A stretch of 6,387 nt of DNA from an uncultured Campylobacter sp. (GTDB lineage: Bacteria; Campylobacterota; Campylobacteria; Campylobacterales; Campylobacteraceae). The position numbers and the translations under genes were made by a program. A model generated the notes under the pieces. It made no database searches. It was not told where the DNA came from and saw nothing but the letters and a program-made list of their open reading frames with translations. Positions 1,152 to 6,387 of the stretch are shown piece after piece. Every line of letters starts with the position of its first letter. Position 1 is the first letter of the stretch. Where the stretch lies: positions 1-6,387 of the forward strand of contig CALHQN010000281.1 of NCBI GenBank assembly GCA_938036585.1. The letters run 5' to 3'.

Positions 1152-1643
1152 ATGCAAAAAAACATCGTTTTTCGAGGATGTACTCGCCCGGCAACCTTTC
1201 TCGGCGTACCCTATATACCTTTCTTTATAGGAGCCGGTTCAGGATTATTAATGGGAATGTACTTCAATTTGTTTTTTTTGCTAACCATCCCATTCATCAT
1301 TCTGATTATGAGGCAGATGGCCAAGCGAGATGACATGATTTTTCGTTTTCTAGGCTTACGCCTGAAATTTAGGCTTAAATTTGCCGAATTTGCATGCAAA
1401 TTTAACAAATCCGCGGCAGCAGTTCACCTTTCGGAAGCTCCAAAAATCGCTGTGAGCCGTAGGCGTTTTGCAAAATCACTCGCCCTTTTGCCGCATGCGA
1501 AGTTTGAAATTGCCCCGCCCTATTTTCTGACGCCGCGTCCATATCGCTTACGCCCGCAAATTCGTCCTGTGCGCCAAGCTTTGGTGTCAAAGCACCCTCA
1601 AAATTGCCTCCGCCGCGCCCTACTTCGCGTACCTCGCCGATGA
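1152..1643 (+). pseudogene. virB3: Truncated VirB3 joined to antisense hypE sequence
   Basis: Residues 1-75 match the VirB3 inner-membrane component of type IV secretion systems: the FRGCTRPA motif at 7-14, two adjacent hydrophobic segments at about 17-53, then MRQMAKRDD (53-61) and FRFLGLRLKFRL (64-75). VirB3 proteins are usually about 100-110 residues and end in a short aromatic and basic tail, which is missing here. From about base 1370 the open frame runs into Campylobacter-like DNA and, from 1402, reads the wrong strand of hypE until a stop at 1641-1643. If the junction is real, the product would be a 163-residue hybrid with 88 meaningless residues and is unlikely to work. The start follows the virB2 stop by 9 bases without an obvious Shine-Dalgarno. 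No virB4 follows. The join may be a genuine recombination or an assembly artefact. Confidence 0.8.
1352..1402. other. Junction between the VirB segment and the Campylobacter-like hyp segment
   Basis: The recognisable VirB3 coding sequence stops between about 1362 and 1380, and the hypE stop codon (opposite strand) lies at 1402-1404. Between them AAATTT words begin at 1365, 1377 and 1398, a pattern typical of everything to the right and rare to the left. TAGGCTTA occurs twice (1351-1358 and 1370-1377), and AATTTGCATGCAAATT (1387-1402) is a perfect 16-base palindrome touching the hypE stop. No integrase, transposase or tRNA attachment site is visible. The exact crossover cannot be fixed from one sequence. 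Confidence 0.7.
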
Positions 1644-2622
1644 TTGCGGCATTTGAGTCAAATTCGCGCAGTATCTCAAGCGCCCTATCCGCCTCGGCAT
1701 CATCTTCTACGATCATTACGAAAGTGCCTTCATTTGCAAGCTCGTAAGGCTCGAAGCCCAGCAGCTCGCACACACCCACCACTTCGTCGCTGATTTTGAT
1801 GTCCTCTTCGCACACTAAAAATTCAAGCCCGCTGGAGCTTGCAAATTCGTTCAAAACCGCGCTAAGTCCGCCGCGCGTCGCATCTCGCATCGCTTGGATC
1901 TTCACGCCTTGCAAGATCAGCTTTTCTACCGCAGCGCAAAGTGGTTTGCAGTCGCTTTGCAGCTCGCTGCTTAGCGCGATCTCGTCGCGCGCCGCTAGTA
2001 TCACCGCTCCGTGCCGCCCGATGTCGCCGCTAAGAAGGATTTTTGCGCCCGCTTTGATGTTTTGCACGCGCGCAGGTCGCAAAACACGGCCGATGCCGCT
2101 AGTGTTAATGAAAATTTTATCGCATTTACCCCGCGGTACGACCTTCGTGTCGCCGCAAACGATACGAACGCCGCAGCTTCGCGCGGTGCTTGCCATCGAG
2201 TCTAGGATGCGTCGCAGCTCGCTTAGGCTAAGCCCCTCCTCGATGATGAGCGCGCAGCTTAAAAACAGCGGCTTTGCGCCCACCATCGCAAGGTCGTTGA
2301 CGGTGCCGCAAACGGCGATCTTGCCGATGTCGCCGCCGTTAAAAAACAGCGGCGTAACCACGAAACTATCGGTGCTGAAAGCTAGCTCGCGGCCGAAGTT
2401 CGCAGAATTCAAAGCAGAGTTCGGCTCCGCGCGATCAAAACCCGCCCCGGCGTCTAAATTTAAATCGTCAAAATTTAAATTTAGTATCGCGCTGTCGTTG
2501 TTTGCGCGTAAAATTTCATTATCAAACGCCGCAAAGATCGTCTCGTTGATGAGCCTATTCATCTCCTCGCCGCCGCCGCCGTGGCTTAAAAGTATAGTTT
2601 CGTTCAAATTTTTCCTTTTCAC
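1402..2622 (-). CDS. hypE: HypE, carbamoyl-dehydratase for the hydrogenase cyanide ligand
   Basis: HypE accepts a carbamoyl group from HypF on its C-terminal cysteine and dehydrates it with ATP to a thiocyanate, which becomes the CN ligands of the [NiFe] site. The protein ends in PRIC (403-406), the obligatory terminus, so the 3' end is complete. PurM/AIRS-fold motifs are clear: SHGGGGEEM (13-21), FSTDSFVV (82-89), GDIGKIAVCGTVND (97-110), GDTKVV (157-162), DATRGG (247-252) and ANEG (296-299). At 406 residues it is about 70 longer than typical HypE (around 335), because of extra stretches at about 48-80 and 337-378. The listed start is GTG at 2622, but TTG at 2607 (giving 401 residues) has AGGA five bases upstream and may be the real start. 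It follows hypD after an unusually long 168-bp gap; hypA, often next in Campylobacter, is absent. Confidence 0.96.
   Translation of the reverse strand: MKRKNLNETILLSHGGGGEEMNRLINETIFAAFDNEILRANNDSAILNLNFDDLNLDAGAGFDRAEPNSALNSANFGRELAFSTDSFVVTPLFFNGGDIGKIAVCGTVNDLAMVGAKPLFLSCALIIEEGLSLSELRRILDSMASTARSCGVRIVCGDTKVVPRGKCDKIFINTSGIGRVLRPARVQNIKAGAKILLSGDIGRHGAVILAARDEIALSSELQSDCKPLCAAVEKLILQGVKIQAMRDATRGGLSAVLNEFASSSGLEFLVCEEDIKISDEVVGVCELLGFEPYELANEGTFVMIVEDDAEADRALEILREFDSNAAIIGEVREVGRGGGNFEGALTPKLGAQDEFAGVSDMDAASENRAGQFQTSHAAKGRVILQNAYGSQRFLELPKGELLPRIC
2613..2616 (-). promoter_or_regulatory. Possible Shine-Dalgarno favouring a TTG start of hypE
   Basis: AGGA lies five bases before TTG at 2605-2607, inside the 5' end of the longest hypE frame. 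The GTG at 2620-2622 has no purine-rich site upstream. The shorter protein would begin NETILLSHGGGG after the initiator, like other HypE proteins, which start only a few residues before the SHG motif. Confidence 0.4.
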
Positions 2623-2633
2623 TCGGTTTTAAA

Positions 2634-2639
2634 TTTATA
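2634..2639 (-). promoter_or_regulatory. Possible -10 element ahead of hypE
   Basis: TATAAA on the - strand lies about 27 bases upstream of the TTG candidate start, in the 168-bp gap between hypD and hypE. Campylobacter promoters often lack a strong -35 box and none is clear here. AT-rich words are so common in this DNA that the match could be chance. Confidence 0.22.
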
Positions 2640-2681
2640 AGCCCGTATTTTTGCAGCCGAACAAGCCGTGCTGCTAAGGTA

Positions 2682-2715
2682 TCGCGCTAAATTTTAAAGC
2701 AAAGCTTTAGCGCGA
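2682..2715. repeat. Perfect 10-bp inverted repeat between hypD and hypE
   Basis: TCGCGCTAAA (2682-2691) and TTTAGCGCGA (2706-2715) are exact inverted copies separated by 14 bases. An alternative inner stem pairs AAAGC (2696-2700) with GCTTT (2704-2708). No U-run follows on the - strand, so it is not a standard terminator for hypD. It could be an RNA stem in the hypD-hypE transcript that attenuates or stabilises the message; that is inference. Confidence 0.6.
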
Positions 2716-2790
2716 CGTTTTGCTTTGGTCAAAATTTTAAATCATGACTTATTTTTAAAATTTACGCTCTGCGATACTGCGCGCAAAATT

Positions 2791-3888
2791 TTAGCCCGCG
2801 TTTTTGACGTCGCCGTATTTGAAATACGCCGCGCATGCGCCTTCGCTTGAGACCATGCACGATCCTATCGGGTTTTGCGGCGTGCAGTGCTTGCCGAAGA
2901 CCTTGCAATCATATGGGCTTTTTTTGCCGCGCAAAATTTCGCCACAGATACAGGCCTTGCTCTCAGGCGCGCTCTGTACGCTGCAATCAAACTGCACACT
3001 GGCATCCAGTGCCGCGTACTGCGGGCGCAGCTTCATGCCGCTTTTTGGAATTTCGCCGAGCCCTCGCCACGGAAAATCGCAAATTTCAAAATATTTATCT
3101 ATCAAATTTTGCGCTTTTTGGTTTCCGCCCTCTTTTACGACGCGCTCGTATTCGTTGAAAACCTCGTAGGTGCCGGCGTTTTGCTGCTCCACCAAATTTA
3201 ACACGCCCGCCATTATGTCAAGCGGCTCAAATCCGCTTACGGCGATCGGCTTTTTGTAATCGCGCGCTATGCCCTCGTAGACCTTCGCGCCGGTAATCAC
3301 GCTTACGTGGCTAGGCCCCAAAAACGCGTCTATCTGCACGTCCGCATCGTCTAAGATCGCTCGCACGGGCGCGGGCACCGTGACGTGGTTGATGTGGAAA
3401 AAGAGATTTTTTAGCCCCAGGCTTAGCGCCTTATCGATCAGCACGGCGCTCATCGGCGTCGTCGTCTCAAAGCCGATCGCAAAAAATATCACCGTTTTTT
3501 GCGGATTTTCCTGCGCGATCTTTATGCAATCAAGCGGGCTGTAAAGCGCTCTGATGTCGTGCCCCTCGCCCCGCAGCTTCTGCAAGCTGGTGCGAGAGCC
3601 AGGAACTCGAAGCATGTCTGCTAGAGTGCAAAAAATACTCTGCGGCATCGCGGCGAGCTTGAGCGCCTCATCGATGCGACTGCGCGGCATCACGCACACC
3701 GGACAGCCGGGGCCGTGGATAAATTTTATATTTTTGCCGACCAAGCTCGGAAGGCCGAATTTCATGATCGAGTGCGTGTGTCCGCCGCAAATTTCCATGA
3801 TGTTTAGCGGCTTTCTGCTCTTAGAAATTATCAGCTTGCTAAGCGCTAAAATCAGCTCCTTATCCCTAAAATCCTTGATTAGATCCAT
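2791..3888 (-). CDS. hypD: HypD, iron-sulfur scaffold for Fe(CN)2CO assembly
   Basis: HypD, in complex with HypC, carries the iron on which two cyanides and one CO are placed before transfer to the hydrogenase large subunit. The 365-residue length is normal. Signature motifs are intact: MEICGGHTH (31-39, C34), HGPGCPVCV (58-66, C62 and C65), FAIGFETTTP (136-145), and a cysteine-rich end with C315, C328, C335, C344 and C352 around PIGSCMVSSEGAC. In characterised HypD proteins the N-terminal cysteines form the active and redox site and the C-terminal ones hold a [4Fe-4S] cluster; which residues are the ligands here is inferred. The ATG at 3886-3888 has AAGG (3895-3898) six bases upstream. It lies 35 bp after hypC and almost certainly shares its transcript. 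Nothing looks broken. Confidence 0.97.
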   Translation of the reverse strand: MDLIKDFRDKELILALSKLIISKSRKPLNIMEICGGHTHSIMKFGLPSLVGKNIKFIHGPGCPVCVMPRSRIDEALKLAAMPQSIFCTLADMLRVPGSRTSLQKLRGEGHDIRALYSPLDCIKIAQENPQKTVIFFAIGFETTTPMSAVLIDKALSLGLKNLFFHINHVTVPAPVRAILDDADVQIDAFLGPSHVSVITGAKVYEGIARDYKKPIAVSGFEPLDIMAGVLNLVEQQNAGTYEVFNEYERVVKEGGNQKAQNLIDKYFEICDFPWRGLGEIPKSGMKLRPQYAALDASVQFDCSVQSAPESKACICGEILRGKKSPYDCKVFGKHCTPQNPIGSCMVSSEGACAAYFKYGDVKNAG

Positions 3889-3923
3889 TATTTACCTTAA
3901 ATTTTACGGGTTTACAAGCCGCT

Positions 3924-4205
3924 TTAATTCTCTGCGCCGGCTCGCGGCTCTATGCTTTCATACACCAAGCCCTCTTCTGCCCTCATCTGCTTTGCGATCT
4001 GCTCGTAAATTTCGATACTTTCCTTCGCTCGCTGCGTATCGATCTTCTCCATCGCAAAGCCCACGTGGATCAGCACGTACTCCCCGACCGCCGCGGGTTC
4101 GGGGAGTAGATCCAAGCTCACGCCGCGGCGCACGCCCAGAGTCTCCACGGTTGCGAAATTATTTTCGTCGATCGAGATGATTTTTGAAGGGATTGAAAGA
4201 CACAT
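3924..4205 (-). CDS. hypC: HypC, hydrogenase maturation chaperone
   Basis: HypC is a small chaperone that binds HypD and the immature hydrogenase large subunit and helps hand over the Fe(CN)2CO group. The 93-residue protein begins MCLSIPSKI; Cys2 is the family's essential residue, exposed after methionine removal, which fixes the start at 4205 rather than at an upstream in-frame ATG at 4244. The small OB-like core follows, with VRRGVSLDLL (25-34) and GEYVLIHVGFAMEKID (41-56, including the conserved H47). The tail from about 57 is helical and charged. The start codon overlaps the hypB stop by one base (TAATG), and AAGGAA at 4214-4219 lies eight bases upstream, both signs of coupled translation with hypB. 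hypD follows after 35 bp. Confidence 0.96.
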   Translation of the reverse strand: MCLSIPSKIISIDENNFATVETLGVRRGVSLDLLPEPAAVGEYVLIHVGFAMEKIDTQRAKESIEIYEQIAKQMRAEEGLVYESIEPRAGAEN

Positions 4206-5026
4206 TAACGAAATTCCTTCTTGTATTGTAGGAATTTCAGCCATTTCTCCACGCCCTCGCCGCTTTTGCTATCAAGCGCGATGACGTCGGCTTTCGGATT
4301 GAGTTTGTGCACTTCGCGCACCACCTCCTCCATATCGAAGTCAAAATGCGGTAGCAGCGCGGTTTTAGTGATTACGACGCAGTCTGCGCGGCGAAATATC
4401 ACCGGGTATTTTGCGATCTTATCGCTGCCCTCGGGCACGCTTAGAAGCACCACGTTCAGGTGCGCGCCTACGTCAAATGCCGCCGGGCAGACGAGGTTTC
4501 CGACGTTTTCTATGAAAACCAGATCTAAATTTTTAGTATCAATGTGATGAAGCCCCTCGTGGATCATAAAGGCGTCCAGATGGCAGGTCTCGCCGGTGCT
4601 AATCTGATGGGCCTGTGCGCCTGCTTTTATGATGCGATCGGCATCGCGGTTAGTCTCCAGATCGCCCTCGATGACGCCGATTTTAAATTTGCCGCTTTTG
4701 ATAGTGGCCTCAAGCAGCGTCGTCTTGCCGCTACCGGGGCTACTCATCAAATTTAAGCATAAAATTTTATCCTCGTCAAAATGGGCTCTGTTGTGAGCGG
4801 CCTCCTCGTCGTTGGCGCTTAAAATTTTACTCATCACCTCGATCGTCTTGGCGTCGCTAATAGCGACATTTGCGTGGACGTGATCGTGCGCATCGTGCTC
4901 ATGATCGATCCCCGCCTCGTGCATATGAGCGTGGGAGTGGACGGTACCGTCCGCGTGGGTGTGGAGATGCTCGTGCGAATGAGCGTCATGAGTATGGCCT
5001 ACTGAACAGCCGCAATCTTTACACAT
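4205..5026 (-). CDS. hypB: HypB, nickel-binding GTPase for hydrogenase maturation
   Basis: HypB works with HypA to insert nickel into the [NiFe] site, using GTP hydrolysis as the switch. The 273-residue protein begins MCKDCGC, the N-terminal high-affinity nickel motif (C2, C5, C7), followed by a histidine-rich stretch (16 His between residues 11 and 51) suited to nickel storage. The SIMIBI-class GTPase domain has Walker A SSPGSGKTT (95-103), EGDLETNRDADR (120-131) and ENVGNLVCP (173-181). C148, H149 and C180 match the metal site of the GTPase domain. The base-recognition motif reads TKTA (220-223) where NKxD is expected, so the usual aspartate is alanine. The ATG at 5024-5026 has AAGGA (5033-5037) six bases upstream. 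It is the first gene of the hypBCDE run and overlaps hypC by one base. Confidence 0.97.
   Translation of the reverse strand: MCKDCGCSVGHTHDAHSHEHLHTHADGTVHSHAHMHEAGIDHEHDAHDHVHANVAISDAKTIEVMSKILSANDEEAAHNRAHFDEDKILCLNLMSSPGSGKTTLLEATIKSGKFKIGVIEGDLETNRDADRIIKAGAQAHQISTGETCHLDAFMIHEGLHHIDTKNLDLVFIENVGNLVCPAAFDVGAHLNVVLLSVPEGSDKIAKYPVIFRRADCVVITKTALLPHFDFDMEEVVREVHKLNPKADVIALDSKSGEGVEKWLKFLQYKKEFR
4214..4219 (-). promoter_or_regulatory. Shine-Dalgarno of hypC inside the end of hypB
   Basis: AAGGAA lies eight bases before the ATG at 4203-4205, within the last codons of hypB. It supports the MCLSIP start of HypC over the longer frame and suggests translational coupling through the TAATG overlap. 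Confidence 0.75.
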
Positions 5027-5098
5027 TTTTTATCCTTGGAAAATAAATTTTGCGCGTAAAATACCACGTTTTTGCTTTAAACGGCGTAAATTTGATAA

Positions 5099-5106
5099 AT
5101 TTTATA
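5099..5106 (-). promoter_or_regulatory. Possible -10 element of the hypB operon
   Basis: TATAAAAT on the - strand lies about 73 bases before the hypB start and directly next to the inverted repeat at 5108-5158. It is the best -10-like word in this leader, but AT-rich words are frequent here and no -35 box is evident. Confidence 0.25.
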
Positions 5107-5107
5107 T

Positions 5108-5158
5108 CGAAGCGCGAAATTTTATGAAATTTAACGAGCTTGAAATTTATGCGCTTCG
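5108..5158. repeat. Long imperfect inverted repeat upstream of hypB
   Basis: CGAAGCGC (5108-5115) and GCGCTTCG (5151-5158) are exact inverted copies. The stem can extend inward through a G-T pair (5116/5150), one bulged A (5149) and AAATTT paired with AAATTT (5117-5122 with 5143-5148), giving about 15 pairs around a 20-base loop. It could be an RNA stem in a leader, a terminator-like element after nikR, or an operator next to the possible -10 at 5099-5106. No U-run follows on the - strand. Confidence 0.6.
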
Positions 5159-5200
5159 GTTTTATCTAAATTTCATACGTTGTTTGCGAAGGCTCGCCGC

Positions 5201-5239
5201 AAATTTTAAAGCTCGCGAGTAAAGCGCTGCTTTAAATTT
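5201..5239. repeat. Imperfect inverted repeat with AAATTT/AAAGC arms
   Basis: AAATTTTAAAGC (5201-5212) can pair with GCTTTAAATTT (5229-5239) with one bulged base, around a 16-base loop that itself contains TCGCGA. It may simply reflect the abundance of AAATTT and AAAGC words in this genome. Confidence 0.4.
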
Positions 5240-5736
5240 AATCGCTTGCTTACAGATTGCAAAGCCGCACTCTGCAAATTTAGACCTAGCAGCTCGCAAC
5301 GGCTCAAACAAACTTAAAGATCGCTGTAGATAGGGGCGCGAAATTCAGGGCTTGCGAGCGGATTTTATCCCGGTGCTCTACAATCTCGCGCGTGCTCTCC
5401 GGCGTGCCGAACACCAATGCAGCGACCATTTTCATATCGATTTTACGCTAGCTCGGCTTTACAAATACGGCACGAAAGCGCGGCTCCTTATAAAATTTAG
5501 TCGCGAGCTGCGCCGATCTTGCGCCAGTGCGTAAATTTCAACCCGCGGCAAGAGCGCTTTTGATTAAAATTTCTAAATTTCACGCTAGCGCTCGCCGCGG
5601 CTAAATTTAAACAAACTTTGCTGCCGCCTAACGCAGACGCTACGTTTAAATTTTACTACGCGACCGCAAAATCGCGCTTCGTAAACTGCAAAAGTCGCGC
5701 AGCCTGCGTTTAAATTTAGAAGCGCACGAATAGAAA

Positions 5737-5751
5737 CGCGAAAATTTCGCG
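5737..5751. repeat. Palindrome just after nikR, possible weak terminator
   Basis: CGCGAAAATTTCGCG reads the same on both strands except for the central base. On the - strand it lies about 30-45 bases after the nikR stop and is followed by TTTCTATT. It could form a 5-bp stem with a 5-base loop and serve as a weak terminator of nikR. The short stem and broken U-run make this uncertain. Confidence 0.3.
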
Positions 5752-5782
5752 CGACGCGCTGTTTTTAAAAATGCTCAAAAGC

Positions 5783-6214
5783 CTACGCTTCGGTGATTAC
5801 CGCGTTTACGAGCTTGGAAAATTTCACCCCTTTTAGCGCGCCGATTTTGGCGCTGAGCCGCTCGATTTTTGAAATTTTATCCCGCATCGTGATCTCCTCG
5901 AAGCAGTGGCGCTCGTCGATGTGGAAGTGGCTGGTACTGATGATGGTAACGTTTGCGTGGTGCTCGATCTCTACGAGTTGCTCGATCAGATCGCTTTGGT
6001 GATGATCATACGCGATGCAAAGCACGCCCACGCAGTCCTCGTCGCTATCTCCGTGAAGCACGCCCTCGACCATCTTTTCGCGGATCAGATCGCGGATAAA
6101 CTCGCTGCGGCTTAGGTATTGCTTGGCGCGCACCATCTCATCGAGATCCTCAAAAAGCTTTGTCGGCAACGAAATGCTAAATCTTACGGCGCTCTCTTTT
6201 TCCTCTTTTTTCAT
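5783..6214 (-). CDS. nikR: NikR, nickel-responsive transcriptional regulator
   Basis: NikR is a ribbon-helix-helix repressor that binds nickel and controls nickel uptake and nickel-enzyme genes. The 143-residue protein has an N-terminal DNA-binding domain (SAVRFSISLPTKL at about 8-20, then the helices through RSEFIRDLIREKM, 36-48) and a C-terminal ACT-like nickel domain (about 62-138). The square-planar nickel ligands known from E. coli NikR (H76, H87, H89, C95) have counterparts at a constant offset of nine: H85, H96, H98 and C104. The ATG at 6212-6214 is chosen because AAGGGGA (6219-6225) lies upstream and the protein then starts at the usual distance from the DNA-binding strand; a longer frame from 6301 adds 29 unrelated residues. 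It is read towards the hyp genes, about 750 bp away. Its targets cannot be read from this window. Confidence 0.96.
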   Translation of the reverse strand: MKKEEKESAVRFSISLPTKLFEDLDEMVRAKQYLSRSEFIRDLIREKMVEGVLHGDSDEDCVGVLCIAYDHHQSDLIEQLVEIEHHANVTIISTSHFHIDERHCFEEITMRDKISKIERLSAKIGALKGVKFSKLVNAVITEA

Positions 6215-6218
6215 AGTT

Positions 6219-6225
6219 TCCCCTT
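6219..6225 (-). promoter_or_regulatory. Shine-Dalgarno that sets the nikR start
   Basis: AAGGGGA on the - strand lies a few bases before the ATG at 6212-6214. The upstream in-frame ATG at 6299-6301 has no comparable site. Confidence 0.7.
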
Positions 6226-6246
6226 GTTTCGCGTATTTTGAACGTA

Positions 6247-6252
6247 ATTTTA
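6247..6252 (-). promoter_or_regulatory. Possible -10 element of nikR
   Basis: TAAAAT on the - strand lies about 33 bases before the nikR ATG, a sensible distance for a promoter with a short leader. No clear -35 box or known NikR operator is seen beside it. Confidence 0.25.
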
Positions 6253-6370
6253 CCGAAATTCCGCTCAAATAGTAAGAATTTTGCATGCTAATTCGGCTCA
6301 TTTTTTAAAATTAAAGTTTAAGGCATCGTGCGTATTTTGAAATTTTGCTCGCGATTTTGCGTCATATTTT

Positions 6371-6387
6371 AGGGCTGGCGAAATGAA
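6371..6387 (+). other. Possible start of a divergent gene cut by the window edge
   Basis: ATG at 6383-6385 is preceded by AGGG at 6371-6374 with eight-base spacing, an arrangement that fits a + strand gene divergent from nikR. Only one further base pair is available, so nothing can be said about a product. Confidence 0.2.

Follow-up and report, generated by a model that had tools for sequence, protein, structure and literature searches.

A VirB fragment of Neisseria ancestry beside a probable Campylobacter hyp operon: very probably a chimeric contig

Bacteria-killing type IV secretion (X-T4SS) loci are listed for several Neisseria in part of an article (PMC6536674), which there describes the X-T4SS VirB7 as carrying an N0 domain preceded by a [T/S]EIPL motif. 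In the portion of another article that deals with the VirB/D system of a commensal Neisseria, virB7 is given as unidentified, with a hypothetical protein in its place (PMC7643975). As for artificial joins, three columns of an assembly comparison put the total length of chimeric contigs at 12.5 to 18.0%, which, as far as these columns go, makes such contigs common; the same excerpt describes chimeric nodes as stretches common to evolutionarily similar species (PMC8171044).

Here we analyzed a stretch of 6,387 nucleotides (the window), in which the beginning of a virB gene cluster abuts a hyp operon. Genes lie on the + strand to the left of the junction and on the - strand to its right. The features are as follows:

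63 to 701, + strand: virB1 (lytic transglycosylase; PF01464, scanned from base 66), Neisseria-derived
753 to 1142, + strand: virB2 pilin (PF04956, 1.5e-13), within the alignment of bases 1 to 1379 to Neisseria genomes, Neisseria-derived
1152 to 1379, + strand: virB3 codons 1 to 76, ended by the junction (PF05101, 3.2e-18)
1152 to 1643, + strand: open frame of 163 residues, product of the join, with a VirB3 head and a tail mostly antisense to hypE
1373 to 1386, no strand: junction word; the left and right parts meet at 1379|1380, and GCTTAAA (1373 to 1379) is a possible shared overlap
1402 to 2622, - strand: hypE (TIGR02124, 8.2e-124), C-terminus LPRIC intact, start codon uncertain
2791 to 3888, - strand: hypD (TIGR00075, 6.2e-146)
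3924 to 4205, - strand: hypC (TIGR00074, 9.9e-25; open frame to 4244, match from its residue 14)
4205 to 5026, - strand: hypB (TIGR00073, 3.4e-85)
5783 to 6214, - strand: nikR-like nickel regulator (NF001884, 2.6e-48; PF08753 and PF01402; open frame to 6301), its start placed where the matches begin

The window contains no tRNA, and neither an integrase nor a relaxase domain was found among the eight window ORFs scanned for domains.

The break sits at 1379|1380, at codon 76 of virB3. A sequence-only reading of this DNA had placed the end of VirB3 homology near residue 75 and the 3' end of hypE, on the other strand, within about 30 bases; both are borne out, the first at residue 76 (base 1379) and the second by a hypE stop codon at 1402-1404, 23 bases past the junction. 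The comparison locus L010 equals the window at 208 of 228 bases over 1152-1379 but at only 10 of 60 over 1380-1439, and its gapped score past the junction is no better than chance, being reached by 221 of 300 shuffles. The same pattern was seen with L011 (206/228 before the junction, 11/60 after it; after-score reached by 267/300 shuffles), L012 (200/228, 12/60; 215/300) and L001 (182/228, 11/60; 283/300). A frameshift inside a continuous virB3 was rejected, since homology is lost at the DNA level from 1380 on and most of the tail is antisense to hypE. The head of the window VirB3 was matched in all of the 90 relatives examined (from 131 candidates), and the fused tail in none of them at E <= 1e-3 (best E, 0.40). 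The native C-terminal motif of VirB3 is carried by 69 of these relatives and missing from 21, including P0123 and P0128. Two proteins from short contigs run on past the point at which the window breaks. P0121, from a 529-base contig of another assembly, is identical at the protein level to residues 1-76 of the window VirB3 and continues with native residues 77-101; it extends to 164 residues, beyond the usual end of VirB3. P0123 (796-base contig) likewise has native residues past the same point and is frameshifted before and after. The fused 163-residue frame is likely to be no genuine protein.

To the left of the junction the ancestry is that of Neisseria. When bases 1-1379 were compared with 46 Neisseria-genus genomes, a set found from the seed record "MAG: Neisseria sp.", three (G018, G029 and G041) gave alignments of 85-88%, all of which terminate at base 1379; another four matched more weakly or partially (one over 38 bases), and 39 gave no match. 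The order virB1, virB2, virB3 is the native Neisseria order. For VirB1, three database proteins encoded on contigs of 2.2, 8.2 and 21.6 kb are perfect matches (100% identity), and the next eleven full-length ones are 82-91% identical. Among the best 120 of its 4,896 matches, most of them nameless, the best named relative is an uncultured Neisseria (90%), one Treponema MAG occurs among the names, and no Campylobacter is named. A Campylobacter plasmid was rejected as the source of the left block: 195 plasmid records match the VirB3 piece, all below 60% identity. A DNA search of the plasmid collection with bases 1-1400 matched a single plasmid, covering 6%, and no match to VirB3 was found in viral contigs.

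In the genome of G018, the corresponding locus is chromosomal and uses both strands. One strand encodes VirD4, VirB10, VirB9, VirB8 and a protein of 161 residues; the other encodes virB1-virB3, VirB4, a protein with a weak VirB5-like match below the family cut-off, VirB6 and a DUF4189 protein. Some 1 kb past the stretch examined, at 2020950, lies a PF00437 ATPase, which is taken by its position to be VirB11. The protein of 161 residues resembles VirB7 of 6gyb, the X. citri core complex (8.4e-22), as well as two further entries, and its translation contains TEIPL; the best match of the VirB9 of this locus is also 6gyb. The relaxase family PF03432, the sole relaxase family searched for, was found in none of three Neisseria genomes, the control being positive in 1 of 14. 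Judged by its sequence, the locus of the nearest Neisseria genome looks like a chromosomal X-T4SS, the bacteria-killing type. The left genes, which the sequence-only reading had called a conjugation cluster, were therefore probably misnamed and would belong with a bacteria-killing type of secretion system; that they serve in killing would follow from the family to which the locus appears to belong.

Two further observations concern Neisseria VirB loci. The VirB7 encoded at L030:7124-7609 (- strand) has no Pfam or NCBIfam match, yet matches the 6gyb VirB7 by sequence; that VirB7 is invisible to these two collections may account for the Neisseria VirB locus without virB7 in the published description, as far as the portion cited goes (PMC7643975). 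The database protein P0172, present on contigs of up to 36 kb, has a ferric-reductase-like domain (PF08022) fused to VirB3 from YIPFF onward. In G041 (C1:481739-492772) its two parts are on the same strand with about 10 kb between them, and in G018 (C1:99005 and 2030897) they are widely separated; the fusion could reflect either a deletion within a VirB locus of Neisseria or a second false join.

To the right of the junction the hyp operon is probably that of an uncultured Campylobacter. The 28 closest relatives of HypE (P0211-P0238), among the best 120 of 8,000 scored, are 88-95% identical, except for two at 81%; four of them are named, and all four are Campylobacter (one MAG Campylobacter sp. 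and three uncultured Campylobacter). The C-terminus LPRIC is shared by all 14 aligned sequences, which indicates that the window hypE is intact at this end. No HypD was found in any of the 46 genomes of the Neisseria genus (the control gave 4 positives out of 14), and a protein search found it absent from all 25 Neisseria-genus genomes among 41 relatives. HypE gave only weak, paralogue-like matches in Neisseria-genus genomes (best E among the matches listed, 9.3e-6). Among 399 genomes of distant kin of G018, 196 match HypE; the top-scoring match is 52% identical, so that none resembles Campylobacter. A plasmid was rejected as the source of hypE (each of the 154 matching plasmid records is below 60% identity), and no relative of HypE was found in viral contigs. 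In this HypE clade, variable extra segments occur near residues 48-79 and 331-377; they are largely missing from P0240 and P0246, and the first is partly encoded by AAATTTAAAT-rich DNA near 2456-2516.

Composition changes across the junction as well, as the sequence-only reading had stated for base composition: GC content is 0.402 over 1-1379 and 0.503 over 1380-6387. In an order-4 Markov comparison, with Neisseria loci minus virB1-virB3 as one training set and bases 1600-6387 as the other, the score climbs to a maximum at 1324 (166.6) and then falls slowly to 150.3 by 1600, which places the shift in composition near the junction. The gene direction flips from + to -. GC skew is noisy and without a clear step. 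The claim made for AAATTT is borne out only in part: the word is more common on the right overall (46 in 5,008 bases, or 9.19 per kb, versus 6 in 1,379 bases, or 4.35 per kb, on the left), but its frequency shows no sharp change at the joint, since the first 1,261 bases to the right contain 8 (6.34 per kb). Base composition alone would predict 1.18 occurrences of this word over 1380-6387, and the occurrences are dense in about 5040-5750.

Several short sequences lie at or around the joint. The words GCTTAAATTTG and TTAAATTTGCCG, which span the junction, are each found once more inside the right part, and these second copies are consistent with a shared overlap of about 7 bases, GCTTAAA. Words of eleven bases taken from 1377-1389 are found in Neisseria loci too and are therefore not peculiar to the right part; the junction word had no match in viral contigs. 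An imperfect direct repeat of 17 bases (82%) has one copy on either side of the junction, at 1354-1370 in native virB3 sequence and at 1546-1562 within hypE, and is of a kind often due to chance. The palindrome at 1387-1402 was set aside as a recombination or terminator signal, since 57 of 200 simulated right parts gave at least one palindrome of at least 16 bases, and the fold at this position is unremarkable (z -1.14; 28 of 200 shuffles as good). This perfect 16-base palindrome adjoins the hypE stop, and a second copy with 2 mismatches lies upstream of nikR, at 6278-6293; two matches of the pattern, which was picked after the fact, occurred in 0 of 200 shuffles.

Taken together, two ancestries meet at a single point, and for the left part a native continuation exists elsewhere (P0121 and L010-L012). 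We consider it very likely that the contig is chimeric and that 1,379 bases of a Neisseria chromosome, broken off within the VirB locus, were joined artificially to the hyp operon of a probable uncultured Campylobacter. This is the simplest account because both blocks look native up to the joint, the joint interrupts a gene that is seen elsewhere with its normal continuation, and neither a tRNA nor an integrase was found at it. Of the two origins entertained in the sequence-only reading, the joining of two genomes during assembly gains support from the sharp break, the native continuation of P0121 and the absence of the fused tail from the 90 relatives. The other, integration of a conjugative element next to hypE, is not supported: the left part is a slice of a chromosomal Neisseria X-T4SS-like locus, neither a tRNA nor an integrase was found in the window, and in another assembly a VirB3 with the same 76 residues has its native continuation.

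Illegitimate recombination could have brought a Neisseria VirB fragment into Campylobacter and left it next to hypE, broken off in virB3; the sequence is contiguous across the junction, the genes of both blocks are intact up to it, and the recurrence of junction-crossing words in the right part makes microhomology possible. Set against this are the fused tail, unmatched in any of the VirB3 relatives, the lack of a Campylobacter name among the best, mostly nameless VirB1 matches, the only 43-44% identity of Campylobacter plasmid VirB3 (in the rows listed), and the lack of a tRNA in the window and of an integrase among its eight scanned ORFs, so we regard such an acquisition as very improbable. 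The natural recombinant that would result, a Campylobacter chromosome with the first genes of a Neisseria killing locus beside its hyp operon, linked by AAATTT-type microhomology, is just as hard to credit. Recombination in the opposite direction, of a hyp operon into the VirB locus of a Neisseria, would agree with the native Neisseria context of the left part and with the natural competence of Neisseria; with HypD in none of the 46 Neisseria-genus genomes, however, and P0121 running on uninterrupted after its 76 identical residues, we give it next to no credence. Four uptake-signal words are absent from the window, which also speaks against it, but this counts for little since the Neisseria VirB stretch L030 has 6 main words in 18 kb.

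If the contig is indeed chimeric, both genomes would have been present together in one sample, probably an oral one, and a chimeric library fragment, or an assembler at low coverage, would have bridged a few shared AT-rich bases. The bridge may have been GCTTAAA, which overlaps the AAATTT word so common to the right of the joint; both its length and the right-hand edge of the junction are putative. A word of about 7 bases and distant species, compared with the nodes of similar species in the excerpt cited above (PMC8171044), weaken the assembler variant and speak rather for a chimeric library fragment. No biological process would then act at the junction itself. Each in its own organism, the genes left of the joint would provide components of a contact-dependent secretion machine of the bacteria-killing type, and those to its right would serve [NiFe]-hydrogenase maturation and nickel-dependent regulation.

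Were the junction real, part of an X-T4SS-type locus would have passed between members of two phyla, Neisseria and Campylobacter; we found no report of such a junction, judging by the titles among the best 10 of 45 literature matches. As a likely artefact, the contig is unfit as evidence of transfer and its fused frame unfit as a protein, and its value is cautionary.

The VirB regions of Campylobacter conjugative plasmids also encode a VirB3 region, but differ in the low identity given above (43-44% among the rows listed of 195 matches) and in having VirB3 in one frame with VirB4, as in the one plasmid inspected, where the VirB4 gene includes VirB3. Orthologues of the left block are the virB1-virB3 genes of a chromosomal Neisseria locus resembling an X-T4SS, in which VirB7 and VirB9 match 6gyb best, although no more than virB1, virB2 and three quarters of virB3 lie in the window. 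Finally, although the species here are distant and may overlap in no more than about 7 bases, the window is like inter-species chimeric metagenome contigs in having two ancestries, each native up to one sharp point within a gene, and a short AT-rich joint.
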